From: Candidatus Eisenbacteria bacterium
GTDB taxonomy: Bacteria > Orphanbacterota > Orphanbacteria > Orphanbacterales > Orphanbacteraceae
Direction of reading: 5' to 3'
NCBI GenBank assembly: GCA_016930695.1
Contig: JAFGGD010000049.1
Coordinates: forward strand, 1-64,000
DNA: 64,000 nt
Shown: positions 6,532-48,193 of the stretch, one piece after another
Numbering within the stretch: the first letter of the stretch is position 1
Layout: each line of letters begins with the position of its first letter
Notes under the pieces: generated by a model
Seen by the model: the letters and a program-made list of their open reading frames with translations, nothing else
Database searches by the model: none
Told to the model about the DNA's origin: nothing
Position numbers and translations under genes: made by a program

Positions 6532-8211
<1,680 letters not shown>

Positions 8212-20400: not shown

Positions 20401-23212
20401 GCGCGACCTGATCCAGGTCGATCAGCATCGAGTCGGTCGCCGTGTTCTCGTTGTTGTCCTTCGTGTTGATGACGACCGGCAGGTCCTTGATGACCGCGAA
20501 GCCGGTTTCCACCTTCGGAAGGAGGGACTCGTCGGTGACCGACGTGGAGGCGCGGATCGTGTCGAGCACGGCCCGGAAGACCAACTCGTCGGTGTCGCGA
20601 TAGTCCAGGTTGCCGTCGCCGATGTCGTACACCTTGGCGGTGTAGCTCGAGTCGGCCGGGTTAGTGCTCGGTCCTCGATCCCAGAACTCCTCGCCGAGGT
20701 CGAACGAGCCGTTGCCGTTCTCGTCGACGAAGGGCTCCGGCCAGTTCATCACGTCGTCGGCCGGATCCCAGCTGTCGCCGGCGGCCGCGGTGGTGTCCCA
20801 GTCGTCGTCGTTATCGACGAGGTCGACGCCCCAGTTCTCGAAGGGAATCGAGTCGTTGCCGGCGTAGGTGTCGATGTTGGTGAAGTCCGCCCACATCCGG
20901 CTCCGCGTCGAGTAGTTGAAGAAGATCCCCAGCGCGTCGTAGGCCGGAACGCCCGCGCCGCTGGTGGTCGTGGTGTCGCCCGCGCCCGCGAAGGTGAGGC
21001 GCACCTCGATGGAGTCGCTGTTGGCGTAGATCTTATGGACGTTGTTCGGGTCGGTCATCGTCCCGATCTTGGTCGAGAACACGTCGTTCACGATCCGGAC
21101 CGAGTCGGTGCCGTTCCCCCAGGAGTCGAAGGCCCGGATCCAGACGAAGCCGCGGCCGTCGTGCTGGTCGAAGCCGATGTCCACCGGGGACCAGGCGCCG
21201 GCGCCGTTGGCGTTCGCCACGGCGAGGGTGTCGGTCGACGCGGTGGAATCGCCGTAAATCACCACGCTGGCGTTCGCCTCGACGCAGCCGGAGTCGGCGT
21301 AGATCGAGTCGAAAGCGGTGCCCGCGGCATTCCAGTGCCCGATGATGTGGATGACGTTGTCATCGCGGGCGAAGGTCGGATCGCCGGCCGGGATCCAGTC
21401 GCGCGGCGTGTTCGGATGGCCGGCGACGAAGGTCTGCTGCAGCGCGATCGCCTGCTCGTAACCGCTGAAGTTGATCACGCCGTAGTTGCCGTTCCAGTCG
21501 GCGCCCACGATACCGAAGTGAATGATGTCGCCGTCTTCGATGATGTCGCCGTTGGAGACGACGCTGTCCGGCGAGATGTTGATGTAGGCGATGATCGGGT
21601 TGTCCCGTCCCGGCGTCGGGTTGAAGACCGGCACGCCGTTCGCCCAGTTCTCATTCACGAAGGTATCCGAAACGGCGTCGCCGATCCGGGTGAAGATCCG
21701 GTAGTAGTTGGTCTTGTCGGTGCCGCTCGCCTCGCGCCAGGCGATCCGGACGACCGAGGAGTCGCGCATACCGTCGGACCAGGAGAACTCGCGCACCAGG
21801 TCGGTGCGGACCTGGATCACGTCCGTGGTGAGCGGCGCGTTCAGGTCGCGGACCGGATGGAAGATCCCCGAGGAGGCCGCCTCGCCCGAGGCGGAGCCGA
21901 CGACGCTCGAGGTGAGCGCGATCGACGCGCCCTCGGTCCAGTTGGTCACGCTCTGGGCGAACCTGCGCCCGGAGCCGTTCCACTGGCCGGCGGGAACGGT
22001 GAATCCGCGAAGGATCATGTTGGCGGCGGTCACCGTCGCCTGCGTCACGTTCTGGCTGAAGTAGATGATGATCGAGTCGGTGGCCGCATCCTTGTAGTAG
22101 GCGGCGACGATGATGGGACCGAGGGAGACGGCGTGGTTGGCGGTCCCCGTGGTCAGATCCCAGTAATCGTTCTGCAACACGCCCGCGCCGCTGTGGGCGA
22201 TCAGGTCGCCCGCCTCGGCACCGGCAGCCGGGTTGGTGAACTTCACCACCCAGGGCATCCAGGGGGAGGCGATCGGCGTGGAAGCGATCGGGTTCGCGCC
22301 GGTCAGGTCGAGCGTTCCGGTGCCGCCGATGGCGTAGTCCGCCACGTCGATCGACGCGGCGTCCGATCCGTTCAGAGAGTCACGAACCGGCATGTTGTAG
22401 ATCACGTAGAGGGTGTCGTCGCCGAGCCCGGGGGTGCCGACCGAATCATAGGCGGCGTCCAGGATGTAGCAACCCTCGGCGTTGGTGATCTGATGCGCCA
22501 CAAAGGAGTTGGCGGTGTCGCCGGCGGCGTTGGTCACGTCCGTCGTCGGCGCCCAGGCGATGGTGGTGATATAGGGAAGGAGCTGGAGAGCCGTGTCGCG
22601 CTGGGCCTCGGTCGGGGCGTCCCAATAGAAATTGGAGATCGTCCAGTTCGCGCCCGCGCCGGCCACGACCAGCGATTCGGTCACCACGTCCGCGCTGAAG
22701 ACGAAGTCCGTCGAGTCCAGATCGGTGGCCGCCTCGGAGAGGACCAGAGTCAGGACATCGTCGGTCGGATCGTCGTTCAGGCTGGTCGCCAACACGGCCG
22801 TCCGGATGATCGGCCCGCGGTTCACCGCGATGGGGGTCGATTCATTGGACAGGAAGGCCTTGTTGTGATCCACGATCGCCTCGATCCAGGCGATGTAGAT
22901 GCTGTCCGCGCTGTCCGGCACGGCGCTCACGAAGGATCCGAAGGTGATGAACTCGTCGTTGTCACCACTTCCGGAACCGTTCGCGACCACGTTCGTGTCG
23001 GTGAACGCGATGTCCGTGAGCTGCCAGTTGGCGTGGCTCACGTCGGCGCTAAACACCACGTTCAGCGTGGAGGTACCGTCCCACGCCGCGTCGATGATGG
23101 CGGGACCGCCCTTCGGCGGAAGGGCGAAGGCACCGCCGGCGGCCAACAAGCCCACCAACACTACCCCCACCAGGGAGAACAGGATTGAACGTCCCTTCCC
23201 ACGACTATGCAT
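8477..23212 (-). CDS. Giant secreted Ig-repeat protein (4911 residues) with FlgD-Ig-like C-terminus
   Basis: One uninterrupted frame of 14.7 kb. The N-terminus is a signal peptide (MHSRGKGRSILFSLVGVVLV and following, cleavage about AFA|L). The body is rich in Asp, Gly, Thr and Trp. Ig-like domain boundaries of the type V(D/I)xxAP recur at about residues 2561, 2699, 2819, 2939, 3082, 3204, 3335, 3479, 3600, 3720, 3852 and 3979, a period of 120-144 residues. Calcium-binding-like DxDxDG runs lie near 1010-1060 and elsewhere. The last 100 residues form a FlgD-Ig-like/type IX sorting-like domain (VYPNPFDN, FDFAGKLV, PWRGTTNDGTLVANGGYLAH). Start ATG 23212 follows AAGGAGGG at good spacing; an in-frame GTG at 23311 also has AGGAGG and would add 33 residues. 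Likely a cell-surface or extracellular adhesin or structural protein; its partner is unknown. Flanked by two TSP3 barrel proteins. Confidence 0.93.
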   Translation of the reverse strand: MHSRGKGRSILFSLVGVVLVGLLAAGGAFALPPKGGPAIIDAAWDGTSTLNVVFSADVSHANWQLTDIAFTDTNVVANGSGSGDNDEFITFGSFVSAVPDSADSIYIAWIEAIVDHNKAFLSNESTPIAVNRGPIIRTAVLATSLNDDPTDDVLTLVLSEAATDLDSTDFVFSADVVTESLVVAGAGANWTISNFYWDAPTEAQRDTALQLLPYITTIAWAPTTDVTNAAGDTANSFVAHQITNAEGCYILDAAYDSVGTPGLGDDTLYVIYNMPVRDSLNGSDAASIDVADYAIGGTGTLDLTGANPIASTPIASPWMPWVVKFTNPAAGAEAGDLIAHSGAGVLQNDYWDLTTGTANHAVSLGPIIVAAYYKDAATDSIIIYFSQNVTQATVTAANMILRGFTVPAGQWNGSGRRFAQSVTNWTEGASIALTSSVVGSASGEAASSGIFHPVRDLNAPLTTDVIQVRTDLVREFSWSDGMRDSSVVRIAWREASGTDKTNYYRIFTRIGDAVSDTFVNENWANGVPVFNPTPGRDNPIIAYINISPDSVVSNGDIIEDGDIIHFGIVGADWNGNYGVINFSGYEQAIALQQTFVAGHPNTPRDWIPAGDPTFARDDNVIHIIGHWNAAGTAFDSIYADSGCVEANASVVIYGDSTASTDTLAVANANGAGAWSPVDIGFDQHDGRGFVWIRAFDSWGNGTDSVRIVNDVFSTKIGTMTDPNNVHKIYANSDSIEVRLTFAGAGDTTTTSGAGVPAYDALGIFFNYSTRSRMWADFTNIDTYAGNDSIPFENWGVDLVDNDDDWDTTAAAGDSWDPADDVMNWPEPFVDENGNGSFDLGEEFWDRGPSTNPADSSYTAKVYDIGDGNLDYRDTDELVFRAVLDTIRASTSVTDESLLPKVETGFAVIKDLPVVINTKDNNENTATDSMLIDLDQVAPEVVYASRIEQQDSWGDADEEANLQTPGNPLFKIGEWLDMTFETPSDSLVDYLVVQIKKNGGDWYDMAFDPHGDWAADGGYPGVDGVDDDGDGDADSADAEVLAAYNTPLTDGVDNNNDGQIDNNADTLYAEYWAWDDDEDGMIDGTTIATGDTDGLGNAGTGLDYLPFMLDVAGHYASAGDSLARLAATPGGAVGDQSVSAADSAFHWFALNGFNINMQLVANLYDIADGDTFEIRGVAYDWVGQSIGQKLGYNNDSVAVGHWYIPAATTYIGYAAANRTGNFNPDNSTAERFQLNLEAPDSYIDTTAFMAYDIKAAAGIQVFDSFDSTQNVPADPATYQMVAVIPGAEDVDSVAFDMWNATTMTWNQVGIDGAPPYTYDWTASILGNSPPDSTWTVYFRTRARDSFGNWEAPDDTLVTYDLVFTVVDGVIPISNITSCEVIGGNIDADLSNGCEVPKDSAVVFRIADGSLSDRDLTNFTDVPFVKFEYRKVIQGKEEATGTWKLMTTVTGTIDEGDTLADLYPPVAVTWNTTLLDAGDYEIRAWAADVEGNDNKLTTFIFTAKVVETPLRAYIDPPARLDDSTYALYAKVFIHDVEVDHVDFQFYEDLDGNGLADDAGSWFTIGTDDNDDTMSVDPGGDIILREGVGTLRMVDSLNAVASVFIDFASDKGYIDYDGDGYSPRDPVVRDNGDMIWDGGVLDQLIIGDPPAAGYTTVSNFDAIEFFADVDGSTGLSSGDWIFRQNMGGFLMDGANDSLQVWKQTWNVAGLGAAYLVRSVATSELGIMDADSIGGGIPTRALALDTEAPAAEISAIALGNGGMKYVGAAKINNAIFAGDNSFLKIWASSADDDVAGVIFEYSLDGGATWDSLDVNNDNDFYVNLDDTIGFTSKDAIVHDVYADDTTFTVTATDILLKNGIAPALDDMLGMRIYPLIAEDTVGGGDADGDGSDGDDVIDTMDEIAPWCVYLDIDAMTMMGAFHTDTEVLVRARAKDLVGNTDAFPHYVSFAIQENIPPEADVIYALSNGDTVDVLGPISDGDEGVQLAAVDTVLNLMVTAEDTTTIDSVYLWYRLDPCYYWLEGYLNIFNNPWMRAGVPADAVYPYNFAWDVSGLKDGRYQFVVIGKDEELNETWPPLNPYEFGRLTAEAVIDTAGKPLGKVAAATGHYTDQILDEVQVGAELWLRAKVESESAVNDTDKLAQKVYFYYAHRVLDEMLTVQNFYPYLSEDLEAAGGVLGDETSYPYSVELVIAGAGGDVIADYYTNDAFEALVSPTKYDYTIRGGDQIEFGAQLASTDTAYVSYNCGTAWIEIEDSPDNDVDENGWFTAAWDPMSPVPAPQSTWAGVTDAYDLIAVLAYDYQGECGTALREAQLSEHKIVLLKQIDGPEVTIHGLFWDEDSPFTRYNAPGNPMNWIFGATSYEHKKTKLCGVEYEVFVTVDSTDHLEDSVKVMFDGDGTYYDMVHYVPGDTITLTITMNEEDFFLDSLAIFPDSIENARVVWDYMSDGAMPYDLYDDGLHNDGAADDGWWGTQIRIPVLGADVHYVYKFDIDMSGDQHTYAFDPRNGKGVGNDTSEVVIPADFWFRAFTDEEITQGVHTAVATAWKGEAYGTNLTSPQGPVYYIIDCTAPVIEDFYVSPTLISSTSPCDSLELTAILMDSGEEIYDILEGWQLHFQFATDDSKTRWVNLDSSAIGWDYAVLAHNGWTWKGTWPNMYLPDRDHIDNDMDGLTDEEDEGDYTFSLRVVAWDDVWNLVIHEEGQVRVDLISPHIVLTSPEQGTVVAWGETLTVCAEPLTATDAAGLDHYIFYYAESSGNWNPIDPTPIDNYDLPHVAADGENPVCVDFVTTWLSEERDQYVQFMAVAIDSACNECDMSELEPIVVAVNDITGPSACITGFETDCMDWHAADPHLAVSESTVVEGQVFDWQDVSIVELWVQVVGGTAPTQPVDVTNDVTSSGVSFTHDFSIYCDEGETEQVDVWMVARDADQNPDPNPFKVRLTVDRDAPAVVYGLVPFVENLAWYHDDDEDPSTVDSTLVVAPDPYTGDLTFRILTTDDDLYGMALQYMPTNSLMTQYDHGDWDVLSTLDFEPQKDTLIGSQTYYFWWLNIDADSLANVGLVDTIYDWRAVAIDWACNTNRLDETVVTAAWDTTSPTCEFFGDFGMGDGEFTQIAAGEDVRLRYVGKDVMTDISHAVFWYVEPGSGDTVVIGSADAVPESLDCWCNSWTAEIDWTTPGPLCQDTEVDVYVWAYDTPGNRKECSHSIMVEDKDPPTGTKLVDVDADADCQLVPREITETVLNNQTITFSGTVELWAQTVGCDDGIATVYFDAINAAGDTLRIGAVDYGETVVKIGISRSYMLEWNTLDLDEYGALRFPDGAYTVFVHAVDLEDNWETAIYTYSFVVDNTAPYVKMKSPAVAGATVDVERGSEVPITSATFTSYTGVETTNEDVKVTWYIRDHNDADCIENCPDCWVAMTDGNGYFGFDSTDVRPDSTRPYSWEWATWNNTVPLEVGNQYDIVAIGEDLVCNTGDICEAWAAGAGITINVIDETAPCATITHLLRYGCGYLSGPVEQPERERVRGFASLTATILRGDTDTEGVRFEYSVDGGETWILTDMDLIEYSNFTWTLNNWDSDQLAEGEVLFRAVAWDDVGNVCEDPATITLIVDRTAPTLEVIEPTEQICPFIYAENGHHIVPLIVKQTGDDHDIFFLQPGWFYEWKKSVDDTTHWSTTGMLEFIYDAGTGYYTGSWDVDAASTPSGKYDFRVTCHDSACNETVMIMAEEVVIDVASPYARITRAVVERVNGTETTTLVTPVNQGVILDITKGEPVTFYASVFDDEQDIPGSLETGVDSVFFQVSSDSNGTWYHIDVGHKDEGEVDPLYWAKWNTSALYPGDYWVRAYAVDECGNIDFSDLVKVHVIDNVPPRAAVICWEPDIKNDINVTTQVRIYATRWCTQDVDEVMFQYRRNDGEVGDGGGDEFPGKATLSEWVTFDIAGNSPYDDSLWAADLEIGPETMWSIGDVMDLRAVAITHTPGSSQDDHEILFIDPNPPITTAKVVANRFGRDLEPVHPDEVPWLSITKAELLPPTESNFLVEVTIDSGVDPTWIGIAKPWVLVTADRMRDEGTGITNNFEELVEMDPKWAGSELDPYLWGGYTYMGLLDSIGCGGYVYINGAVVEDSGATDHEIHVDVVRKTIAVHEVNNGRGTNGPVAIPGDPNLTVDIPAGNGLTGAILMTPTMTPVFPDWEEPRFFTQPVGQAYKIHWLECQGESCDEFEYGYWAKIIIGYDEEDLWVTDDLGRYVKVDEETGLLAGFWYDGYWSNEGISGLSVDTLNNKVTFYVEELCDYDVWSLVGITGGHQVNFYPWCDGYTNQAPKITATISSFLTEGDDTDYLENEDTQIWIDDMLVASGNEDDPDRDDFEDYEGYAIGNGYFSIEHMDNSEVSQTIVYHHSTLPEHRLSGGKHTLYIRYRDDYQEYWYNIKRDFYVDVVPVMADWHGGFLNGPCVSASDCYVGGDDHMIQVDLWDYESGVITQEARIQATLNLIYGSLTEFLGGILGGGAFSVEMFEGDSLTTISFNDTTIIPLQDMGLKMDVWLVDENEDDQHDIDEYMERNLIQTATPAMLVFDPPMCEYSSMDMCDTSDVYDPKDKLTVQLPLTADLASYDGHEIEVVLYSSKIEHIGWDSNLGQIIGIGGGGGSGDDDDEEFTKYIFGPFDCVGNVGTQFIARRYIIDAMAPKVVFSTPVMGSVVAPGSEIPVIAVIVDSNGAGNGMGSGLNTDMLNLMLTGPEGRIFEFNPATFDPADTNSTDEEVAENAKAVVKHTKDVDVAYDKVSMTMMEIDKVGLYTLTLEGEDEIGNKFTAAHSFSTGSTVLQITDSHVYPNPFDNTNEEARIKFNLGGMNPARVTVKIFDFAGKLVNDKIMLDWKPSDGAVVEIPWRGTTNDGTLVANGGYLAHIMVDDGSGVKTTNVKIAVRKE

Positions 23213-25732: not shown

Positions 25733-26746
25733 TTACCGATACATCTTCTTGATATCGCCCCAGGAGGTGTTCTCGGTGGGCGTGAACTCGCAGCCGATGG
25801 TGAGCGCCCCGATCAGGCCGCACCCCTCGGGATTCAGCGCCGGGCTGGAGCCGCTCAGGCGGAGATCGCAGTTCTCCGCGTCGCAGAAAAGAGGGTCGAC
25901 CTCGAACTCGATCGGACCGGGATCGCCGAAGCAGCACTCCCCCTCGGTCTCGTCGTTCGCCCACCCCAGGTTGCACACACCGTTAATCAGAGAGCCGTTG
26001 ACCCAGAAACCGCCGCCGCCGGTGTTCCACGCGATGATGTTGTGGCTCACCGTGGCGATGGAGCTGTAGATCGAGAGACCGCACCCGAAATCGTGATCCT
26101 CTTCCAGATGATTCATGGCGATGGTGTTGTGCTCGACCACGGCGTTCATGCTGTTCTGGATATGGACGCCCCCACCCTTCACCTCCGCCGAGTTGCTGCA
26201 GATCACGCTCCAGCGCAGTTCCGCGTTGCTTCCCGCAACGTAGACGGCCGCGCCCTCCACCGCCCAGTTGTCCTGAAGGGTGCAGAACTCGATCGTCGGC
26301 TCGCCGCCGCCGTCCATGTAGATTCCGCCGCCGCGGAAGTCCGCGACATTGTCCCGGATGAAGCAGTTGGTGATCGTCGGCGAGGCGCCGGCGCTGATCA
26401 TGATCCCCCCGCCCTTCTGGTTCTTCCCGTTCCGGATCGTGAACCCCTCGATACGGGTGTTCTGGTTCACTCCGTACGGGAAAAAGACGGTCGAGGCCTG
26501 CGCGCCTCCGTCCAGAATGGTGAAGTCGGGGCCCGCCCCGATCACCTCGACGCCGCTCTTGATGGAAAGATTCTCGGCGTAGGTGCCCGAGGCGACCACG
26601 ACCACGTCTCCGCTCGAAGCGGCGTTCACGGCGGCCTGGATCGTGTTGAAGGTGGTCGGTACCTGATGGGTCACCGCCAGAGCGGCCGTCGCCGGCAGCA
26701 GAAGGAAAAGCACCCCCCAAACGCTCATCTCGGTGCGGAATCGCAT
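25733..26746 (-). CDS. Secreted right-handed beta-helix protein with C-terminal SWG tag
   Basis: A 337-residue secreted protein. The signal peptide is MSVWGVLFLLLPATAALA. NosD/pectate-lyase-like parallel beta-helix repeats follow: FNTIQAAVNAASSGDVVVVA, then coils such as PTITNCFIRDN, GGGIYMDGGGEPTIEFC and NAVVEHNTIAMNH. A cysteine-containing cap leads into the C-terminus ENTSWGDIKKMYR, a tag shared with the proteins at 46790 and 47648. Such helices often bind or cleave polysaccharide, but no catalytic set is evident. ATG 26746 was chosen because GGAGG lies 7 bases before it; an ATG two codons upstream is too close. The gene is alone, with a near-perfect sigma-54 promoter upstream and a strong terminator. 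It is divergent from the CXXCH lipoprotein gene. Confidence 0.88.
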   Translation of the reverse strand: MRFRTEMSVWGVLFLLLPATAALAVTHQVPTTFNTIQAAVNAASSGDVVVVASGTYAENLSIKSGVEVIGAGPDFTILDGGAQASTVFFPYGVNQNTRIEGFTIRNGKNQKGGGIMISAGASPTITNCFIRDNVADFRGGGIYMDGGGEPTIEFCTLQDNWAVEGAAVYVAGSNAELRWSVICSNSAEVKGGGVHIQNSMNAVVEHNTIAMNHLEEDHDFGCGLSIYSSIATVSHNIIAWNTGGGGFWVNGSLINGVCNLGWANDETEGECCFGDPGPIEFEVDPLFCDAENCDLRLSGSSPALNPEGCGLIGALTIGCEFTPTENTSWGDIKKMYR

Positions 26747-26916
26747 GGTCATACCTCCAGTCGATCGCGAAACGCCCGCGGCGGGACGCGACGCTGCGTT
26801 GGAACGGGCCATCTCGTAAGAGGCGACCATCGGACCCGCCGACTGCGTGGGAGATCGCTTTTTGCTTCGTTCTTCGAGATTTTGGCCCGCGCAAGTACTC
26901 AATCGACCCTAAGGGG

Positions 26917-33684: not shown

Positions 33685-36600
33685 TTACGGTTTGAGGATC
33701 GCCTTGCCGAGCGCTTCGGCTCGGTTCCCTCCGCCGCTCGCGACGAGGCGGTACACGTATACTCCGGCGGCGATCCGGTCGCCGTCGGCGTCCCGGCCGT
33801 CCCAAACGCCCGGGTTCTCGTTATAGCCTACCGTGCCGGAGAGTCCGTCGATCACGCGAATCCGTCGTCCCGCGACGGTATACACCTCGAGGAACACGCG
33901 GTCCGCCGGAGCGGTCAGATGGTAGAAGAAGCCGGTCTCTCCGTCGACGGGATTGGGGTGGTTCAACAGATCCACGACGCGGAGGCGATCCTCCACGCGG
34001 AATCGGACGCTCTTTTGCAGCCCCTGGACGCCGACGGCGAGAACGTGCTCCCCCGGATCGAGGAGCGGGCGGAGGGCGGCCCGCCAATGGAAGCCGTCCA
34101 GCGGGATGAGCGAATCCGGCTCCACCGGCGCGCCGTCCAGATCGAGGACGAGATCCTCCTCGTTCACCGGGACGGGCGTCGCGATCTCCGCGCGGATGAG
34201 CGGCTCCCGGACGACGTAGTCGCCGTCGCGGATCGTAGCGCCGTCGAAGGTGAGGCTCACGCCGACGAGCACCCGGAGGCGGAATTCCGCGGAACGGCCG
34301 TTGGCGTCCTTCGCCCGGAAGAGGACCTCGTACTCGCCGAAGCGGATCTCGGCGTCGTATCGGATCGTCCAGGCGCGGCCGTCGGCGGCGAGGGCGCTGT
34401 CCGCCTCGACGGTGTAGAGAGAGGGATCCAACGCCTCCCCGGCTTCGAAGACGCCGATCGAGTCGGCGGCGATCGCCACCTCGTCGTGCACCCGGGCGAC
34501 GATCGACACCGGGCCGCCGTCGTCCCGCCCGGTCAGCGGATCGCCGTCCTCCGCCGTCTCGCCGTCCACGGTCACCTCGAAGTGCGGGGGGCGGGCGTCG
34601 ATCCGTAGCGCCGGATCGCCGAAGAGGACGTAACGGCGGGGGATCCCGCTGCTCCCACCGCCGGCGACGAAGTCCGCCATGCCGAGGGCGACGATCTCGC
34701 CCAGCGTCCAGCGGGGGATTCCGCCGTACCAGGCGGGGAGAGAGTCCGGGTCGGCGCCGGGGATCACGCCGGGGGTCTGGAACATATATTTGATGACCGA
34801 ATCGTTCAACACGAGATTGGATTGCAGATATTCGATGGCGGTGGAACCGAAGGAGGCCACCGCGCCGCCGCGGTCGCTCAACACCATCTCCTCGGGAATC
34901 GATTCGTATCCAAAGGAACTGAATCGGTCGAACTCGGCGATGGAGCATCCGTATCCCATGAAAATGTACGGCCGCCCCCGGTTTTTCGAATAGGAACGGA
35001 TGTCGCGGGAGGCGTGGTTCCGGTAGTCCCATCCGTTCCGCAGAATCACCTCGTGGGTGAGCACGTTCCGGTTCCCGTGCCCCTGAAAGTTCACCAGAAG
35101 GGCGCCGGCGCCGTTCAGCTCCCCGAAAAGAGCGGGGATTACGTCTGCGCGGCACTTCTCGATCACGCAGTCCACGTCCGCCTTGTCCGGATTATCCGGA
35201 TCGGATGGATAGGGGCAGAGGGGATGAAAGATATCCGTGTAGGAGGAGAGATAAACGCCCACCGTGTCGATCCCGCGGGCGGCGGTCTCCTTCAGCTCGC
35301 GGGCGAACCGCTCCGAGTGCTCCCGGAACTGCGTTTGTCCGCTATTGACGGTCGGTCCCTTCGTGAAAGTCCAGCCGTCGTCGGCGAGGAAAATCACGCG
35401 GGATCGCCAGGAATCGCCGGCGTCGAAGCTCTCATAGGCGATGGTTTTCTCCACCATCTCCTCCAGCTCCGAGGCGCGCCCCACGGGGAAGCGGCCGATC
35501 AGCAAGTCCGGGAGCGGGTCCGAATCGCCGTCCAAGAGAACGTACCACTGGTCGCTCGTATCCCAGTGATCGCCGCTCGATTCCACCTGCGCCCGGTAGA
35601 TCGGATAGCCGGGGATGAAATCGATCTCGTTGTCGTAGTCCGGGTTGGCGGCGTAGTTCCGGGCGGTCCCCTTGTAATCCTCGTACCCGTCGCCGACGAA
35701 GAGGACCCACCCCGGCGGAGTGGACCAACGTTCGAAGGCGTAGCGGAGGAAGCGGCGGATCGCCACCGGATCCTTCACGCCGCCGTTAAAGGCGTCGTAG
35801 ACCTCGCCGACCGGAACGACGCGGACCGAATAGCCCTGCGCCTCCCGATGGGAGACGAGGTCGCCCAGACCCCCCACGAAATCCTCGTGGGCGAGGATCA
35901 GGTAAGTCCCCTCCTCGCCCGCGGGATCCGCCGGAGAAACCGCCTCGATCCGTGAAGAGGAGAGGGTCCGCATCGCCGAGGGAACGGCGGCGGCGTAGCG
36001 CCGGGTCGCGCCGGCGGAGTCCTCCAGCGCGAAGACGTAGGCGCTTCCGTCGAAACCGATCGACCCTTGGACGAGCCGGACCGGGGCGTAGGGATCGGTC
36101 ACGTCGAACAGCACCACCGCCGAATCGGAGAATCCCTCCACCTCGATCCGGTAGCGGCCGGTCGCCTCGCCGTTGGAGAAGAGAAGGTAGTCCTCGTAGG
36201 CGCGGTAGAGGAAACGGGCGTGCACCTCGTACCAGTCCAGATAGCCCCCGGCGCCGGTACCGAATTCCCATGGGGTCCACCGGCTCCCCCCGTACTGAAA
36301 ACGATTGATCCCCGCCGCTATCGTCGAGGCGTCCCTCGTCTTCTCGGCCGGAAACAGCCCGGGGATCTCGCCGATCACGGTTTGATCGAAAACCGTGTCC
36401 CCGCTCGCCGAGTTCGTCAGCGTGTAGCGATGATTGGTCTTGGTGGTGCCCGTAGCGGTTTCCATGGGAGACACGCTCACCGTCATCGCCTTGATGCCGT
36501 AAGGCGCCTCCGGATCCGGCGCGGGAAGGGTCACCTCGGTGGTCTTGGTCGCATCGTTCCTGCCCATGGCGAAGTAGAGGTCCACCGTGTCCGAAGGAGT

Positions 36601-37797
36601 ATTGATGTTGTACTCGATGTCCGATTCCCAGCGGATGGAATCGGGGAAGGAACGAAGAGACGTGAGGCCGGTCCACGCGTGGAGCGCCGTGCGCTCCTCC
36701 ATCGGCGCCCTCTCCCCTCCCACGGTGAGGAAGTAGACCGCGTCCACGGCGAAGCGGTCCTCGTAGTCCCGCTTCATCCGATCGTCGCGAAAGCCGGGGA
36801 GATAGACCAAGAGGGCGTCGCCGGACTCGAAGAAACCGTCGCCGTCGTCGTCCTCTTCGAGGAAGGGGATCGAGAGGACGGTGAAGGGATCGCCGCCCGA
36901 TTCGAAAAGACCGTCGTCGTATCCGCGCCCCTCGATCTCGAGCGAGGAGAAGGGGATCCCCGAGGAGAGCCCGTCCTCCTGGAAACGTTCGAAAGCGATC
37001 CGGTAGAAACCGGTTTCCCGCACGAGAATCCGATAGGCTTCCGAAAGAGGCGCGGCCCTTTTCCGCGCGCCCGCGCCGTCGCGGGCGACGCGGGCGACAC
37101 GGCTGCGGAAGGCGCGGCCCTGGTCATAGTTCGAAAGGAGCCCGCGGTAGATCTCTTCCCAGCGCCCCTCGTCGCCGACAGGTTCCCGCGCCGCCGGGGC
37201 GCCCCTCTTCGCCGGATCGGGAAGGAACTCCACCTCCACCTCCATCTTCCGATAGACGCGGATCAGCCCCGTGGAGGGAACGACGCGGATCGGCGCGACG
37301 CGGACCGGTACGAGGAGTTGGTGGCGGAAGCGGGCCGGCTCTCCCACCGTGACCGGCTCGGCGGGATACCAATCGGTCCGCCGGTAGAACACTTCTTCGT
37401 AGGCGGGGAGCGCGACGGCGACCCCCGGAGAGCCGACCGTCGTGTCCCGCCGCGCGGGAAGGACCGTCGGTCCGGGGAGATCGTCGTATTCGGCGCCGAC
37501 CAAACGGGCGCGGGCGATGTGCCCCTCGGGAACGGCGATCCAATAACCCTGAATGGGAAGGTCGGGGCGGCCCGGCTCGCCGATCCTTCCAGCGCCGAAC
37601 ATGTCGATCCGCCGGAAAGAACGCCCTTCCGACTCCACCTCGACCATGTCGTACCGGTTCGGCTCGACGGTGAGGAGAAGCCCTTTGTCCTCTCGAGTGG
37701 TCACTCCGGCCCGAACCAAGGGAACGAATGCGGCGAAAGCGACGGCGGCCGGAAGAAGCCGCAACGCCACAACCTTTCCAACTCTTTTTATTTTCAT
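33685..37797 (-). CDS. Gingipain-like C25 family peptidase with FlgD-Ig-like C-terminus
   Basis: A 1370-residue secreted cysteine peptidase. The signal peptide is followed by a propeptide-like region with LPIQGYWIAVPEGHIARARL, typical of gingipain N-termini. The C25 domain lies at about 650-1080, with VLFVGDGYEDY, catalytic His907 in NFQGHGNRN and catalytic Cys951 in FMGYGCSIAEFD, and ends with YVLFGDPALRI. Ig-like segments follow, and a FlgD-Ig-like C-terminal domain covers about 1290-1370 (NHPNPVDGETGFFY, VYTVAGRRIRV, WDGRDADGDRIAAGVYVYRL). This is the layout of gingipains and of PorU, the sortase of type IX secretion; which of the two it resembles functionally cannot be decided here. It is preceded by its own promoter and divergent from the FG-GAP gene. 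Confidence 0.92.
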   Translation of the reverse strand: MKIKRVGKVVALRLLPAAVAFAAFVPLVRAGVTTREDKGLLLTVEPNRYDMVEVESEGRSFRRIDMFGAGRIGEPGRPDLPIQGYWIAVPEGHIARARLVGAEYDDLPGPTVLPARRDTTVGSPGVAVALPAYEEVFYRRTDWYPAEPVTVGEPARFRHQLLVPVRVAPIRVVPSTGLIRVYRKMEVEVEFLPDPAKRGAPAAREPVGDEGRWEEIYRGLLSNYDQGRAFRSRVARVARDGAGARKRAAPLSEAYRILVRETGFYRIAFERFQEDGLSSGIPFSSLEIEGRGYDDGLFESGGDPFTVLSIPFLEEDDDGDGFFESGDALLVYLPGFRDDRMKRDYEDRFAVDAVYFLTVGGERAPMEERTALHAWTGLTSLRSFPDSIRWESDIEYNINTPSDTVDLYFAMGRNDATKTTEVTLPAPDPEAPYGIKAMTVSVSPMETATGTTKTNHRYTLTNSASGDTVFDQTVIGEIPGLFPAEKTRDASTIAAGINRFQYGGSRWTPWEFGTGAGGYLDWYEVHARFLYRAYEDYLLFSNGEATGRYRIEVEGFSDSAVVLFDVTDPYAPVRLVQGSIGFDGSAYVFALEDSAGATRRYAAAVPSAMRTLSSSRIEAVSPADPAGEEGTYLILAHEDFVGGLGDLVSHREAQGYSVRVVPVGEVYDAFNGGVKDPVAIRRFLRYAFERWSTPPGWVLFVGDGYEDYKGTARNYAANPDYDNEIDFIPGYPIYRAQVESSGDHWDTSDQWYVLLDGDSDPLPDLLIGRFPVGRASELEEMVEKTIAYESFDAGDSWRSRVIFLADDGWTFTKGPTVNSGQTQFREHSERFARELKETAARGIDTVGVYLSSYTDIFHPLCPYPSDPDNPDKADVDCVIEKCRADVIPALFGELNGAGALLVNFQGHGNRNVLTHEVILRNGWDYRNHASRDIRSYSKNRGRPYIFMGYGCSIAEFDRFSSFGYESIPEEMVLSDRGGAVASFGSTAIEYLQSNLVLNDSVIKYMFQTPGVIPGADPDSLPAWYGGIPRWTLGEIVALGMADFVAGGGSSGIPRRYVLFGDPALRIDARPPHFEVTVDGETAEDGDPLTGRDDGGPVSIVARVHDEVAIAADSIGVFEAGEALDPSLYTVEADSALAADGRAWTIRYDAEIRFGEYEVLFRAKDANGRSAEFRLRVLVGVSLTFDGATIRDGDYVVREPLIRAEIATPVPVNEEDLVLDLDGAPVEPDSLIPLDGFHWRAALRPLLDPGEHVLAVGVQGLQKSVRFRVEDRLRVVDLLNHPNPVDGETGFFYHLTAPADRVFLEVYTVAGRRIRVIDGLSGTVGYNENPGVWDGRDADGDRIAAGVYVYRLVASGGGNRAEALGKAILKP

Positions 37798-43357: not shown

Positions 43358-45480
43358 TCGGGATTCTCCCTCCCGGCGACCGAGCCGATCGCCTCCTCGG
43401 CCAGTCGGATGTTGCTTCGGATCGGGCTCTCCGGATCGTACGCCAGTATCTTTTCCCAAGCGCGGATCGCCCCCTCGTTGTCCCCTCGGTGGAAAAGCAC
43501 CAGGCCGATATTGCAGTGCGCCGCGGAGTGGCGGGGGTTCAACTCCACCGCCTTCCGATACTCCCGGAGCGCTTCCTCCTCACGGCCCTGTTTTTCCAAC
43601 AGGTCGCCCAGGCGGTTGCGAAGATCCGCGTCCTCTCCGGCATCACCGATCCGCTCGCGGACGAGCGCCTCCGCCCCGTCGAAATCGCCCGCTTTCTCCC
43701 GGCTGTTCACCAGATTCCGGAACGCGTCTTCGTTCTCCGGCTCGACCGCCAGCGCCCGGCGGTACGCGTCCGAGGCCTTCTCGTACCGCTCCAGATCGAA
43801 GAGGGCGTTCCCCAGATTGTAATAGGCCGCCCCCCAATCGCCCCGAAGACGGAGAGCCTCACGATACGACTCCACCGCTCTTTCGTTCCGGTTCATGGCG
43901 TGCTCGACCACGCCGAGGTTGAGGTGCGCCTCGGCGAAGTCGGGGGCCACCCGGAGCGCGGCCCGGTAGCCTTCGGCCGCCTCCCACAAGCGCCCCTGCG
44001 ATTGATCGAGCCGCGCCGCGCTGTAAAGCGCGGTCCTATGTCCCGGGAACAATTCGAGAGCTTCGTCGTACGCCTTCCGAGCCTCGTCGACCCGCCCCAT
44101 CTCCTCGTAAGCCTGCCCCATTTGGGTCAGCGAGAAGGCTCGCGCGATCGTCCTCCCCTCGCCGGCCACCGGGCGGTTGATCAGGACGAAGAGGAGCGCC
44201 AAAATCGCCAACGTCCAGACGGTTTGGAACCAGCGCCACCGCCGCCACCCCGCCGCGATCCAGGCGAGCCCGAGCGCCGCCGGAACGGCGAAAACACCGG
44301 CGAAGGGGATCCGATAACGGGAGTGGATATAAAAGAGGAGCGCGGACGCGAACTGGGCGAACAGGAAGAGAAGGAGCGGCGCCCCTCTCCGCCGGACCAG
44401 GAGGAGAATCACGCCGACCAAGCCGAGCGGGGCGATCACGCCGAAGAGAAGGGGCGTGCGCCGGAGGATGTCCGTTCGCTCCTGGAAGAAACCCATGTCC
44501 ACGTTGTCCGGTATCTCCAGGTCGTTCCAGAAGAGAAAGGCCTTGCGCCCGAGGAGACGGAGATAACCCGCGGGGTGGGCGACGATCCATCGGAGGCCTC
44601 TCGTCATCCAATAACGGGACACCGCCGAGGGAGGGAGCGGCCGCCCCTCTTCCCTCTCGGCGATCCTCTTCGATTCGTGGATATTGATGTTCTCCGGCGT
44701 GGGAACGCTCGCCTCGGGGAAAGAGAAGACGCCCCGGGCGGCCTCGTTGTTCCCCATGAAGAAATTGACCCCGCCGTGAGAAGAGACGGGAACGAAATCG
44801 CCGCCCAGCACGGCGTTCCGGAGGGTGACCGGGAAGATCGCCAGGGCCGTGCCCAGCAGAAGCGCTCCGGCGGCGATCCCTCTCCGCCACCCCCTCTCGA
44901 TCGCGATCACCCAAACGATCAGGAGAGGGAGCAGAAGCAGGAGGTTCCCCTGAATCAGCGTGCCGAGTCCGAGAAGCAGCCCGCAGAAGAAAAGGGATCG
45001 CGCTGAACCTCCGGGCCGCCGAGCGAGAAGGCGGTCGAGAAGGAGCAGATTGACGAAGAGCCCGATCGCCGTCGGCAGGCGAAAGGTCTCGTAGAAGAGG
45101 GTGGGGCGGTAGAGCCCGCCGATCAGGAGGGCGAGAACGCCCGCCGTTCTTCCGCCGAGGCGGGAGGCGATCCGATAGAGGAGCCACAGCCCCGCCAGTC
45201 CTACGAGGATCTGGAAGACCGCCACCGGCATCGGGCGGGGACCGAACACGCGATAGAAAAAACCGAGTAGATAAGGATAGGCGGGATTGGTCGCGAAGAC
45301 GGGGAAGGGATAGCCGTCTCCTGCGGCGATCCGTTCGGCGATCTCGTGGTAGACCTTGGAGTCCGCCACCGGATGGTGGAAGAGGGGATGATCCGCCGCC
45401 TCCCGCAGGTAGGCGACTCTCCAGAAGAGGAGCAGAAGGAAGAGACCGCCGATCGTGAGTGAGCGGGCGCCGCGAGTCAT
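43354..45480 (-). CDS. GT-C (family 39-like) membrane glycosyltransferase with C-terminal TPRs
   Basis: A 708-residue protein. The N-terminal half has about 10-11 hydrophobic helices, with an acidic luminal loop after helix 1 (HHPVADSKVYHEIAERIAAG), as in ArnT/PMT-type GT-C enzymes that use polyprenyl-phosphate sugars. A periplasmic loop with GGVNFFMGNNEAARG follows. The C-terminal 270 residues are TPR repeats (ALYSAARLDQSQGRLWEAAE, AHLNLGVVEHAMNRNERA, AAYYNLGNALFDLERYEKA). It probably moves a sugar to a protein or lipid on the periplasmic side. ATG 45480 overlaps the beta-helix stop (ATGA), and it is coupled downstream to the sulfatase-fold gene. Confidence 0.85.
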   Translation of the reverse strand: MTRGARSLTIGGLFLLLLFWRVAYLREAADHPLFHHPVADSKVYHEIAERIAAGDGYPFPVFATNPAYPYLLGFFYRVFGPRPMPVAVFQILVGLAGLWLLYRIASRLGGRTAGVLALLIGGLYRPTLFYETFRLPTAIGLFVNLLLLDRLLARRPGGSARSLFFCGLLLGLGTLIQGNLLLLLPLLIVWVIAIERGWRRGIAAGALLLGTALAIFPVTLRNAVLGGDFVPVSSHGGVNFFMGNNEAARGVFSFPEASVPTPENINIHESKRIAEREEGRPLPPSAVSRYWMTRGLRWIVAHPAGYLRLLGRKAFLFWNDLEIPDNVDMGFFQERTDILRRTPLLFGVIAPLGLVGVILLLVRRRGAPLLLFLFAQFASALLFYIHSRYRIPFAGVFAVPAALGLAWIAAGWRRWRWFQTVWTLAILALLFVLINRPVAGEGRTIARAFSLTQMGQAYEEMGRVDEARKAYDEALELFPGHRTALYSAARLDQSQGRLWEAAEGYRAALRVAPDFAEAHLNLGVVEHAMNRNERAVESYREALRLRGDWGAAYYNLGNALFDLERYEKASDAYRRALAVEPENEDAFRNLVNSREKAGDFDGAEALVRERIGDAGEDADLRNRLGDLLEKQGREEEALREYRKAVELNPRHSAAHCNIGLVLFHRGDNEGAIRAWEKILAYDPESPIRSNIRLAEEAIGSVAGRENPE

Positions 45481-46664
45481 CGACGCTCCCCGAACAGGGG
45501 CGGTTCATCCGCGGCGGGCTCTTCGCCGCACAACGCGGTGTAGCATCCCGCCGCACCCTCTCCCCGGACGGGAGACGCGGGCCGGAGCCGCGGATCGGTC
45601 GCTTCGTCGCAGAGGAGAGGATCTTCCCGGCGGGCGCCGGCCCATGGTTCCACCCCTTCGGCGGGCCCGCAGGCGTGGAGCACGTTCCCTTCCGATACGG
45701 GCTCCGACCCGCCGTCGACGAACAACCAGGCGCCCGCGGAGCGGACGAGCAGGTTTCGGACGAGCCGTGCGCTCCCTCGGTTGTCGATTCGGATCCCCCC
45801 GGTGAGGGGACCGTAGTTCCGGACCAGCGTGTTCCTTTCGAAGAGGACGTCATTTTTCCAGGAGTAGAGAGCGCCGCCCATGTCGCCGCAGTCGTTCCCG
45901 ATCGCCAGGTTGCCGCGGACACGGGCCTCGTTCGATTGCAGGAAGGAGACCGCGCCCCCCCGCTTCATCGCCCGGTTCTCCTCGAAACGGTTACCGATGA
46001 CTTCCGCGGCGCATTTTCTCAGCACCGCCAGGCCGCCGCCGGAATCGGAGATGACCCGGTTCCCGCGGAACAGGTTCCCCCGTACCGTCCCCCGGGTTCG
46101 GTCGAGAAGACAGAGCCCGCCCCCGTGGAAGACCACCGAGTTGTTCTCGAAAATATTCGCTTCGGCCGTCAAGGAACATTTGTTAGCGGCGCATACGCCC
46201 CCGCCGTGGTATCGGGCGTAGTTATCCACGATCCGGTTTCCGCGAAGAACCGCTTCCACGCCGTTGTGAATGGAGACGCCCCCGCCGTTGCCGTCCACCC
46301 AGCCGTTCCGCACGGTGAAGCCGTCCAACACGAAGGAGACCCCTTCGCCGCGCGCGACCACCACCGATTTTTCCACGCCCAATCCGTCCAGCACGGTCGG
46401 CCGACGCACCGGGTCCCGGCCGCTGAAATCACGATCCCATCCGCCCGTCAGAACGAGGCTCTTCTCGATGATCAGGTTCTCCCGATACACTCCCTCGGCG
46501 ACGGCGACGGTGTCCCCCTCCGCGGCGAGGCTCACCCCCCCCGCGACATCCGGCGCGTCGCCGGGTACGCGGAGCGTCCGCCCCGAAGCGGGAACGGCGG
46601 CGGCGAGAAACGAGAGGAAAAGGGATAGGGAAATGAGGCGAGGAAATCGGTGGATATTCATCAT
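45477..46664 (-). CDS. Secreted right-handed beta-helix protein, operon leader
   Basis: A 395-residue exported protein. The signal peptide (MNIHRFPRLISLSLFLSFLA, cleavage about ASG|R) is followed by parallel beta-helix coils: DGLGVEKSVVVARGEGVSFV, GGGVSIHNGVEAVLRGNRI, GGGLCLLDRTRGTVRGNLFR and GGALYSWKNDVLFERN. It resembles the beta-helix protein at 25733 in fold but lacks the SWG tag; it ends in PPLFGERR. No Shine-Dalgarno is present before the paired ATG codons. Instead a TATACT box lies 6 bases upstream, which suggests a leaderless message. A TTG start 12 codons upstream is the alternative. First gene of the beta-helix, GT-C, sulfatase-fold, TPR operon. Confidence 0.83.
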   Translation of the reverse strand: MMNIHRFPRLISLSLFLSFLAAAVPASGRTLRVPGDAPDVAGGVSLAAEGDTVAVAEGVYRENLIIEKSLVLTGGWDRDFSGRDPVRRPTVLDGLGVEKSVVVARGEGVSFVLDGFTVRNGWVDGNGGGVSIHNGVEAVLRGNRIVDNYARYHGGGVCAANKCSLTAEANIFENNSVVFHGGGLCLLDRTRGTVRGNLFRGNRVISDSGGGLAVLRKCAAEVIGNRFEENRAMKRGGAVSFLQSNEARVRGNLAIGNDCGDMGGALYSWKNDVLFERNTLVRNYGPLTGGIRIDNRGSARLVRNLLVRSAGAWLFVDGGSEPVSEGNVLHACGPAEGVEPWAGARREDPLLCDEATDPRLRPASPVRGEGAAGCYTALCGEEPAADEPPLFGERR

Positions 46665-46789: not shown

Positions 46790-47443
46790 CTACCGGAAAA
46801 GCTTTTTGATGGAACCCCAGGACTGAGCCTCGGTCCCGGTGTTCTCGGGACAGGCCTGCCCGGCTTCATCAAAGACGACGTTCACACCCGCCGGCCAATA
46901 GAAGACCGACGTGTTGGCTCCATCGATAATGAACTGTATCGAGCCCTCGTCGGCCACCTGATACGTAAACGTTCCACAGGTCACTGGAGAACTCAGAAGA
47001 TTGCCCAGGCTCCAGTCCGTCGCCTGCAACATGAAGCAACGAGCCTTGGGATACGTAGAGCTGATGCTCGCACTGACGGGAATGGCTACATAAGGCGTGT
47101 GTTCGGACACGATGTTGACGGTGGACCAAGACGCGTAGACTTCGTATTCCCAGCTCCAGCTCGCCAAGTGGGTCGTGTCTTTGATACAGAAAACGCACCC
47201 ATAGGACTGAATGGTAGACCCCAGCTCGTCAAAATAAACATCGAACGTGAAATCCGTTCCCACATCCGATGCACCGTGCCAACGCCCCATATCGATCGTG
47301 TTGGTGATGCAGGTCCCGCTCTCGTCCGCGTCGAATCCGACGAATCGATCCGCCCAGGCGACACCCACGCAGAGACCGGAGACCAGGCAGAGGATGCCCA
47401 GGGCCATCGCGGTCCGCAGTCCGAATCCCTTCCAAACGCGCAT
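46790..47443 (-). CDS. Small secreted protein, cohesin-like pattern, C-terminal SWG tag
   Basis: A 217-residue exported protein: signal peptide to about residue 31 (VSGLCVGVAWA|D), a beta-rich body with several Cys and Trp, and the C-terminus TEAQSWGSIKKLFR. The body aligns by eye with the neighbour at 47648: FTFDVYFDE with VVDIYMMV, GCVFCIKD with GCIVGNFD, SWSTV with SWAAV, and QATDWSLGNLL with QATSWGGTDLL, ending in TFTYQVA with TLTFHAA. The order of strands is reminiscent of cohesin domains, at low certainty. ATG 47443 follows AAGGAG at 8 bases; a GTG three codons upstream is too close to it. Single-gene unit with its own promoter and terminator. Confidence 0.78.
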   Translation of the reverse strand: MRVWKGFGLRTAMALGILCLVSGLCVGVAWADRFVGFDADESGTCITNTIDMGRWHGASDVGTDFTFDVYFDELGSTIQSYGCVFCIKDTTHLASWSWEYEVYASWSTVNIVSEHTPYVAIPVSASISSTYPKARCFMLQATDWSLGNLLSSPVTCGTFTYQVADEGSIQFIIDGANTSVFYWPAGVNVVFDEAGQACPENTGTEAQSWGSIKKLFR

Positions 47444-47526
47444 GACAATCACTCCTTTTTAAACACGTAAAACGCCCATCTCGACGGTTTCGCAATCCAC
47501 CCGTTCCCTCGGAACAGTACGTGGCT

Positions 47527-47556
47527 ACTATAGATAAGCGTCCGAATCGATGTCAA
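47527..47556 (-). promoter_or_regulatory. Promoter of gene 46790-47443
   Basis: On the minus strand: TTGACA (47551-47556), 18-bp spacer, TATAGT (47527-47532). The leader is about 75 bases and includes TTTTACGTGTTT (47461-47472), also found in the giant gene leader. Confidence 0.7.
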
Positions 47557-47589
47557 TGGGAATTTGGAAAAAGCCCAGGCCCAACAGGG

Positions 47590-47623
47590 AAAAAAAAGAG
47601 AGGCGGTCCGAAGACCGCCTCTC
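47590..47623 (-). terminator. Rho-independent terminator of gene 47648-48193
   Basis: On the minus strand: an 11-bp stem GAGAGGCGGTC/GACCGCCTCTC closed by a TTCG loop (arms 47613-47623 and 47598-47608), followed by seven T. It lies 25 bases past the stop codon. Confidence 0.92.
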
Positions 47624-47647
47624 TCGTAGCATCTAGCCGAAGCAGAA

Positions 47648-48193
47648 CTACCGGAACAGCCCCTTAACGGCGCCCCAGCTGGCCTCTTCGGTCGCGCTCG
47701 TGCCGATCTGCACGGTGCCGCCGATGAGGACGTCGAAGTCCACCTGGCCGAGCATCATGTCGAACACACCGCCCGAGATGACGACCAAGTCGTCGACCGA
47801 GCAATCCGCGGCGGCGTGGAAGGTCAGGGTAGCGACTAAGATCGGGGTGTTGAAGTTGAGGAGGTCCGTGCCGCCCCAGGAGGTGGCCTGCACGGTGATT
47901 TCCTCACCAACGGCCGGCGGAACGGCGGCCCAGGACGGCGGCGTGTGGTACACGCAGCCCTGGTACTCGAGGGAGCCGTCGAAGTTGCCGACGATGCAGC
48001 CGATGGACTGGCCGTACTCAACGCCCGGAACCATCATGTAGATGTCGACGACGATGTAGTCGCTGACTTCAGCGATGATGAAGTCTGGACCGTTACCCAC
48101 GACGGCGTCCAGATCCAGCTCGCAGGTTCCCGCGCCAAAGGCGAGCGAAGCGGTCGCGAACAAAGCCGCAGCCAAAACGAGAGCCTTCTTCAT
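47648..48193 (-). CDS. Small secreted protein, cohesin-like pattern, C-terminal SWG tag
   Basis: A 181-residue exported protein: signal peptide MKKALVLAAALFATASLAFG, mature start near AGTCELDLD, a compact beta-rich body and the C-terminus TEEASWGAVKGLFR. It is paralogous to the adjacent 46790 gene and shorter by about 35 residues. The body pattern (D-I-Y segment, a G-C-I-V turn, and a closing TLTFHAAADC strand) resembles cohesin or other carbohydrate/docking beta-sandwiches, but identity is too low to assert this. ATG 48193 with AAAGGAG upstream. Single-gene unit with a strong promoter, a 170-base leader and a strong terminator. Confidence 0.8.
   Translation of the reverse strand: MKKALVLAAALFATASLAFGAGTCELDLDAVVGNGPDFIIAEVSDYIVVDIYMMVPGVEYGQSIGCIVGNFDGSLEYQGCVYHTPPSWAAVPPAVGEEITVQATSWGGTDLLNFNTPILVATLTFHAAADCSVDDLVVISGGVFDMMLGQVDFDVLIGGTVQIGTSATEEASWGAVKGLFR

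Follow-up and report, generated by a model that had tools for sequence, protein, structure and literature searches.

A short C-terminal tail common to unrelated secreted proteins of Candidatus Eisenbacteria as a probable miniature sorting signal

Why should secreted proteins of different folds end in almost the same few residues? The question is raised by the window analysed here (a 64,000-nucleotide stretch of a Candidatus Eisenbacteria contig), in which the initial annotation had pointed to three such proteins. All three are present, on the minus strand, and each begins with a signal peptide. The first is a beta-helix protein of 339 amino acids (positions 25733–26752; PF13229 Beta_helix, 5.7e-13), whose translation ends in ENTSWGDIKKMYR followed by the stop, and whose 16-residue tag, TPTENTSWGDIKKMYR (25736–25783, minus strand), is predicted to form a short helix at the C-terminus, preceded by a disordered linker. 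The second, of 217 amino acids (46790–47443), ends in EAQSWGSIKKLFR (translated tail AQSWGSIKKLFR, then stop) and matched no Pfam or NCBIfam family. The third, of 181 amino acids (47648–48193), adjoins the second on the same strand and ends in SATEEASWGAVKGLFR (translated tail EASWGAVKGLFR, then stop). A further secreted beta-helix protein lies directly downstream of this tagged pair (45480–46664, minus strand); it is untagged and ends in ...EPPLFGERR.

Distribution of the tag among exported proteins

We searched for the tag together with its stop codon (pattern WSNTGGGGNNNNNTNAARNNNNTNTWYMGNTRR), using the reversed pattern as a control, and found that a tail of 10–16 residues, (S/T)WGx(I/V)Kx(L/M)(F/Y)R, stands at the end of dozens of secreted, mutually unrelated proteins. 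The window holds three exact matches to tag and stop, and the sole further match at up to three mismatches is one site with three (mean in the shuffled window at the same tolerance, 0.30). The 3.78-Mb genome contains 21 exact matches, or 29 when one mismatch is allowed, nearly all of them real protein C-termini, while the reversed pattern gave 0 and 0. All seven genomes of the window's phylum (one family) carry 10–32 matches each, 167 in total with none in the control, and 47 other tag-bearing genomes (Eisenbacteria, Krumholzibacteriota and similar) yielded 889 matches against 0. Synonymous codons vary within the tag (TCN and AGY for Ser, CGN and AGR for Arg), meaning that it is conserved as a peptide; a DNA-level element is thereby ruled out.

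The tag is specific to exported proteins. Specifically, in 1.22 Mb of stretches of the genome, comprising 925 genes called with a home-made codon-usage gene caller and screened with our own signal-peptide rule, all 27 tagged genes encode a predicted signal peptide and no further transmembrane segment, a class that comprises 261 of the 925 genes overall (hypergeometric p ~5e-16). Under a laxer test applied across genomes, a signal peptide was found in 156 of 161 tagged proteins. The domains that precede the tag (among them beta-helix, pectate lyase, CHRD, PKD, FG-GAP, LTD, CBM20, X25 and three choice-of-anchor types, i.e., A, W and J) are typical surface modules. About 13 of the 161 score as lipoproteins by a crude rule, several of them with clear lipoboxes, and in tandem-repeat lipoproteins the tag is also kept internally, between the repeats. 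Tagged repeat-domain lipoproteins were seen at four loci (L030, at G000:C44:21538–24570, which has the internal tag; L085; L092; and L095), with acidic residues following the lipobox (C-DDDD). Elsewhere, a tandem row of five tagged genes stands at a spacing of ~610 bp (G004:C21:223726–226221; L262).

The tag is also common to different folds. BLAST grouped the 28 tagged proteins of this genome, stripped of their tags, in 17 unrelated clusters; for all 195 tagged proteins together it gave 69. Paralogy therefore fails to explain the tag, and an origin by paralogy only is ruled out. The proposal that the resemblance is coincidental, or that one recently duplicated gene family spread its tail, can draw on the nine adjacent tagged gene pairs of the sampled genome, which indicate that tandem duplication does occur, but it is refuted by the 17 unrelated clusters in one genome, the zero control matches and the presence of the tag in several phyla, and we give it almost no credence. 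The initial annotation had named two observations that would speak against its proposal, namely no genome-wide excess of the motif at C-termini and a restriction to direct paralogues; the 21 exact matches against none in the control and the number of unrelated clusters point the other way in both respects. Its further points, that the tag spans folds and lacks a transmembrane helix, agree with the counts above, and so does the enrichment among signal-peptide proteins for which it had proposed a test.

Anatomy of the tag and comparison with known signals

The full consensus reads [TV][PA][VT]E..[ST]WGx[IV]K[SA][LM][YF]R-COOH, in which the search pattern itself imposes W, G, K and R, and Glu stands at position -13 in 108 of 187 tagged proteins. 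The motif as first described, a tail of 10–11 residues, is thus present, but it is the end of a longer consensus. Relaxed variants include TFG, SWS and a final K; the terminal Arg, at first held to be invariable, is the usual ending, with Lys in its place in two relaxed matches. AlphaFold2 models of the window's beta-helix protein and of a Bacteroidota Fn3-like protein (see below), i.e., two unrelated folds, predict with low confidence (low pLDDT) a short helix at the tag, lying outside the domain. Such a helix would be amphipathic if Ser/Thr served as its N-cap and one of its faces was made up of W, I/V, L/M and F/Y.

The tag falls under no NCBIfam or Pfam model. Among the reported matches, none of 82 tagged proteins matched TIGR04183, PF18962, PF13860 or CHU_C, so that a known C-terminal domain (CTD) family of the type IX system (T9SS) is ruled out by sequence. 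The tag resembles the T9SS type A CTD (and FlgD_ig, PF13860) in being C-terminal on many unrelated, Sec-exported cargos. By contrast, it has ~16 residues rather than ~70–90, is a predicted short helix (low pLDDT) rather than a beta-sandwich, and contains an invariant W-G-K-R set and no GxY or NPFNP motif. The T9SS cargo of Prevotella intermedia includes short CTDs of 40–55 residues, with three beta-strands and motifs B, D and E; like the tag, these are shortened C-terminal signals found beside long CTDs in one genome, whereas the tag has none of the three motifs (PMC11969387). PEP-CTERM, MYXO-CTERM, GlyGly-CTERM and LPXTG are likewise short C-terminal signatures on dozens of otherwise unrelated surface proteins, and the same kind of genome-wide evidence revealed them. 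They combine a signature with a transmembrane helix and a basic cluster and are served by a membrane sortase, whereas the tag has no such helix and its signature is the last 10 residues; a known CTERM signal with a transmembrane helix is ruled out by the absence of any extra transmembrane segment in the 27 tagged genes. We judge that the tag lies outside every CTD or CTERM family tested by sequence, yet would work like one. No description of it was found in the literature searched, which included few subscription papers, and it seems to be undescribed so far.

Two short features do connect tag and CTD. The ending [LMIV][LIVFYMW][RK]-COOH closes 24 of 27 tags of this genome and 20 of 21 anchored CTDs, compared with 6 of 452 soluble and 1 of 115 transmembrane proteins, and most other secreted proteins with this ending are visibly CTD proteins. 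Tag and CTD thus have a common hydrophobic-hydrophobic-[R/K]-COOH terminus. They also have in common, more weakly on the CTD side, a boundary motif, [TS][AGSP][VIT][ED], which occurs in 62 of 183 tagged proteins (60 of them at position -16; shuffle mean 5.9) and in 7 of 30 CTDs (shuffle mean 1.1). This motif resembles the cleavage consensus of P. intermedia CTDs, PT|GI (PMC11969387).

Exchange of tag and type IX domain between homologues

Many proteins of this genome also have a terminal FlgD-Ig domain that scores over the cut-off of TIGR04183, the "T9SS type A sorting domain" model, and the initial annotation had proposed that the tag is used in parallel with such ends. The comparison proves to be the key one, because tag and CTD substitute for each other at one junction in homologous proteins. 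Specifically, the tagged protein at C49:89127–89822, which matched no family model, is 51% identical over 228 amino acids to a protein 20 kb away (C49:109480–110454) that passes TIGR04183 (27.6 > 23 bits); their ends differ. The window's beta-helix protein (25733–26752) is homologous to the last beta-helix of a CTD-ended protein of 1725 amino acids encoded on the same contig (C49:76567–81741), and both finish the domain with CGL[IV]GA...GC. From there the former runs into TENTSWGDIKKMYR and the stop (junction ...CGLIGALTIGCEFTP-TENTSWG), and the latter into TAVDG...NPFNP...RKMVLVR and the stop (junction ...CGLVGARPVGCASQ-TAVDG). More beta-helix pairs and the L131/L102 family display the same exchange, self-matches having been left out.

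As homologues differ in their ends at a single junction, the tag occupies the place of the CTD. Sitting where related proteins carry the larger type IX signal, it probably acts as a miniature label that addresses proteins to the cell surface, and we are confident, short of certainty, that the tail is a genuine and specific C-terminal sorting signal. A degron, or a processing tail for a periplasmic protease with no sorting function, would also be a short unstructured linker with a hydrophobic tail at the extreme C-terminus. We find that reading very improbable: W, G, K and R are very strictly conserved, the tag is abundant on presumed structural surface proteins, and exchange with a T9SS CTD is not expected of a degron. 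The swap could equally mean, on the other hand, that a different machine serves the same destination.

The window contains one further large exported product, a giant secreted protein of ~4900 amino acids (8480–23212, minus strand) with the predicted end KTTNVKIAVRKE, from which the tag and the usual hydrophobic-hydrophobic-R/K ending are both absent.

Candidate readers and taxonomic spread

Two T9SS-type genes lie in the window itself. One encodes an outer-membrane protein of the PorV/PorQ family (6535–8211, minus strand; NF033709, 110.3 bits against a cut-off of 90), in which the barrel is joined to thrombospondin-type repeats and an OmpA peptidoglycan-binding domain (PF00691); it represents a candidate shuttle or receptor class for the tag. 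The other encodes a PorU-like protein of the C25 type (33688–37797, minus strand), a member of the T9SS sortase family and a candidate processing enzyme, which scores below the equivalog cut-off of 420 bits (NF033707, E 9.2e-78, 262 bits). The best PorU of the genome lies elsewhere (C34:176137–179598; NF033707, 545 bits, over the cut-off).

Both SprA (TIGR04189) and PorU (NF033707) exceed their cut-offs in 7/7 genomes of the window's phylum, and several C25-type matches were found in each of the tag-rich genomes. SprA is convincing in 44 of the 47 other tag-bearing genomes; four tag-bearing MAGs of unknown completeness (G017, G026, G029 and G213), in which we found no convincing SprA, count against a T9SS reading. 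Among Bacteroidota, SprA was found in 27/27 tagged and 38/53 tag-less genomes (Fisher p 0.0016, kinship not corrected). In the Eisenbacteria-type phylum, six of seven tag-less genomes have it too, so that the co-occurrence is one-way and, in that phylum, weak. SprA therefore looks necessary but insufficient for the tag. Around tagged genes, no gene (a cognate shuttle included) is consistently adjacent; recurrent neighbours are CTD proteins, ABC transporters, a PorV-like cluster and housekeeping genes. Of these, the PorV-like cluster was rejected as a neighbourhood partner, being, by eye, no commoner near tags than elsewhere.

We lean towards the T9SS as the reader of the tag, given the tag's co-occurrence with SprA and PorU, the PorV- and PorU-like genes of the window, and the terminus and boundary motif common to tag and CTD; that the T9SS reads the tag as an alternative to the ~90-residue CTD is, on balance, the reading we favour. 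The initial annotation had spoken of a short sorting or anchoring signal read by an unknown system; the shortness and the restriction to exported proteins hold, but the evidence leans to the T9SS itself. The tag would then be a self-contained C-terminal sorting signal, a "micro-CTD". A tagged protein would reach the periplasm via Sec by means of its N-terminal signal peptide, and its last ~16 residues would form a flexible linker and a short amphipathic helix, capped by [ST], with the hydrophobic residues on one face and K and the C-terminal R beside them. An outer-membrane carrier or receptor would bind the tag and deliver the protein to the surface of the cell or beyond it, the likeliest machine being the cell's own T9SS, i.e., the SprA translocon with a PorV-family shuttle. 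Cleavage of the PorU type, at T|[PA][VT]E, may occur as well; both this cleavage and surface anchoring through the tag are speculative. Two further observations count against the T9SS: the tag lacks the beta-strand motifs modelled as PorV-bound in known CTDs, and, since lipoproteins are unusual as T9SS cargo, so do the tagged lipoproteins.

The main rival to the T9SS reading is a separate machine, in which a dedicated receptor or transpeptidase reads the WG..K..[FY]R helix and, without the T9SS, anchors the protein or exports it, its CTD-ended homologues reaching the same surface by another route. We regard this as possible, if rather doubtful. The lack of resemblance to CTD models, the occurrence of SprA in genomes without tags, the tagged lipoproteins and the choice-of-anchor domains (which, by their naming, go with differing anchoring signals) are all consistent with it. 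Against it, no candidate partner gene recurs near tagged genes, and the common C-terminal tripeptide, the boundary motif and the one-way dependence on SprA better fit a common reader.

Among the matches listed under the stricter pattern, tags occur in Candidatus Eisenbacteria, Krumholzibacteriota, Effluviviaceae, a Latescibacterota MAG and MAGs deposited as Gemmatimonadetes. In the phylum of one Eisenbacteria MAG, 40 of 47 genomes bear them. Two of the "Gemmatimonadetes" MAGs, SS_bin_27 and DeMMO4_6, have matches at coordinates identical to those of G001 and G006 in the window's phylum and are thus apparently duplicates of these genomes. Hymenobacter and many other Bacteroidota carry a separate, lone tagged gene, in one copy per genome, encoding a secreted Fn3-like protein of ~130 amino acids with a strictly conserved tag, [ST]WG[ST]IK[SA][ML]FR. 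It is like the proteins above in its tag, its signal peptide and its SprA-bearing genomes, and differs in being uncharacterised and single rather than one of dozens. No family model exceeded its cut-off for this protein, and a search of solved structures returned antibody-like chance matches only and no solved relative.

Such a single-copy protein would fit a fixed binding partner, and the tag might accordingly be one for retention or assembly, its helix binding an envelope hub (associated with peptidoglycan, BAM or lipoproteins) and its protein staying in the periplasm or at the periplasmic side of the outer membrane. The existence of tagged lipoproteins and an amphipathic, basic helix are in keeping with this. 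We nevertheless hold it to be unlikely, as tagged proteins have extracellular-type modules (pectate lyase, CBM, PKD, FG-GAP, choice-of-anchor) and are homologous to CTD-ended proteins bound for export. Somewhat less improbably, the tag could be a new class of surface-sorting signal, perhaps the smallest in Gram-negatives, with a dedicated, hitherto unrecognised receptor; alongside the T9SS, it would serve Eisenbacteria, Krumholzibacteriota and a number of further candidate phyla, and Bacteroidota would retain it as a single-copy relic.

If the T9SS does read the tag, ~16 residues could direct outer-membrane export in much of the Bacteroidota-related (FCB) radiation, rather than a folded domain of 70–90 residues. 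Dozens of surface proteins per genome would be predicted in uncultured phyla, and the tag would offer a minimal peptide with which to dissect what is read by PorV/SprA or another receptor, as well as a very small handle for surface display. If the T9SS is not the reader, a whole sorting system is still to be found. On the favoured reading, the lone Fn3-like protein of Bacteroidota would gain a testable role. Its genomic neighbourhood (MATE transporter, Maf, HemC, GlmU-like) suggested no partner. Across the loci at which we recorded it (L242–L253, L067, L074, L096, L123, L139, L148 and L150), the gene frequently sits between a MATE-type transporter and Maf.
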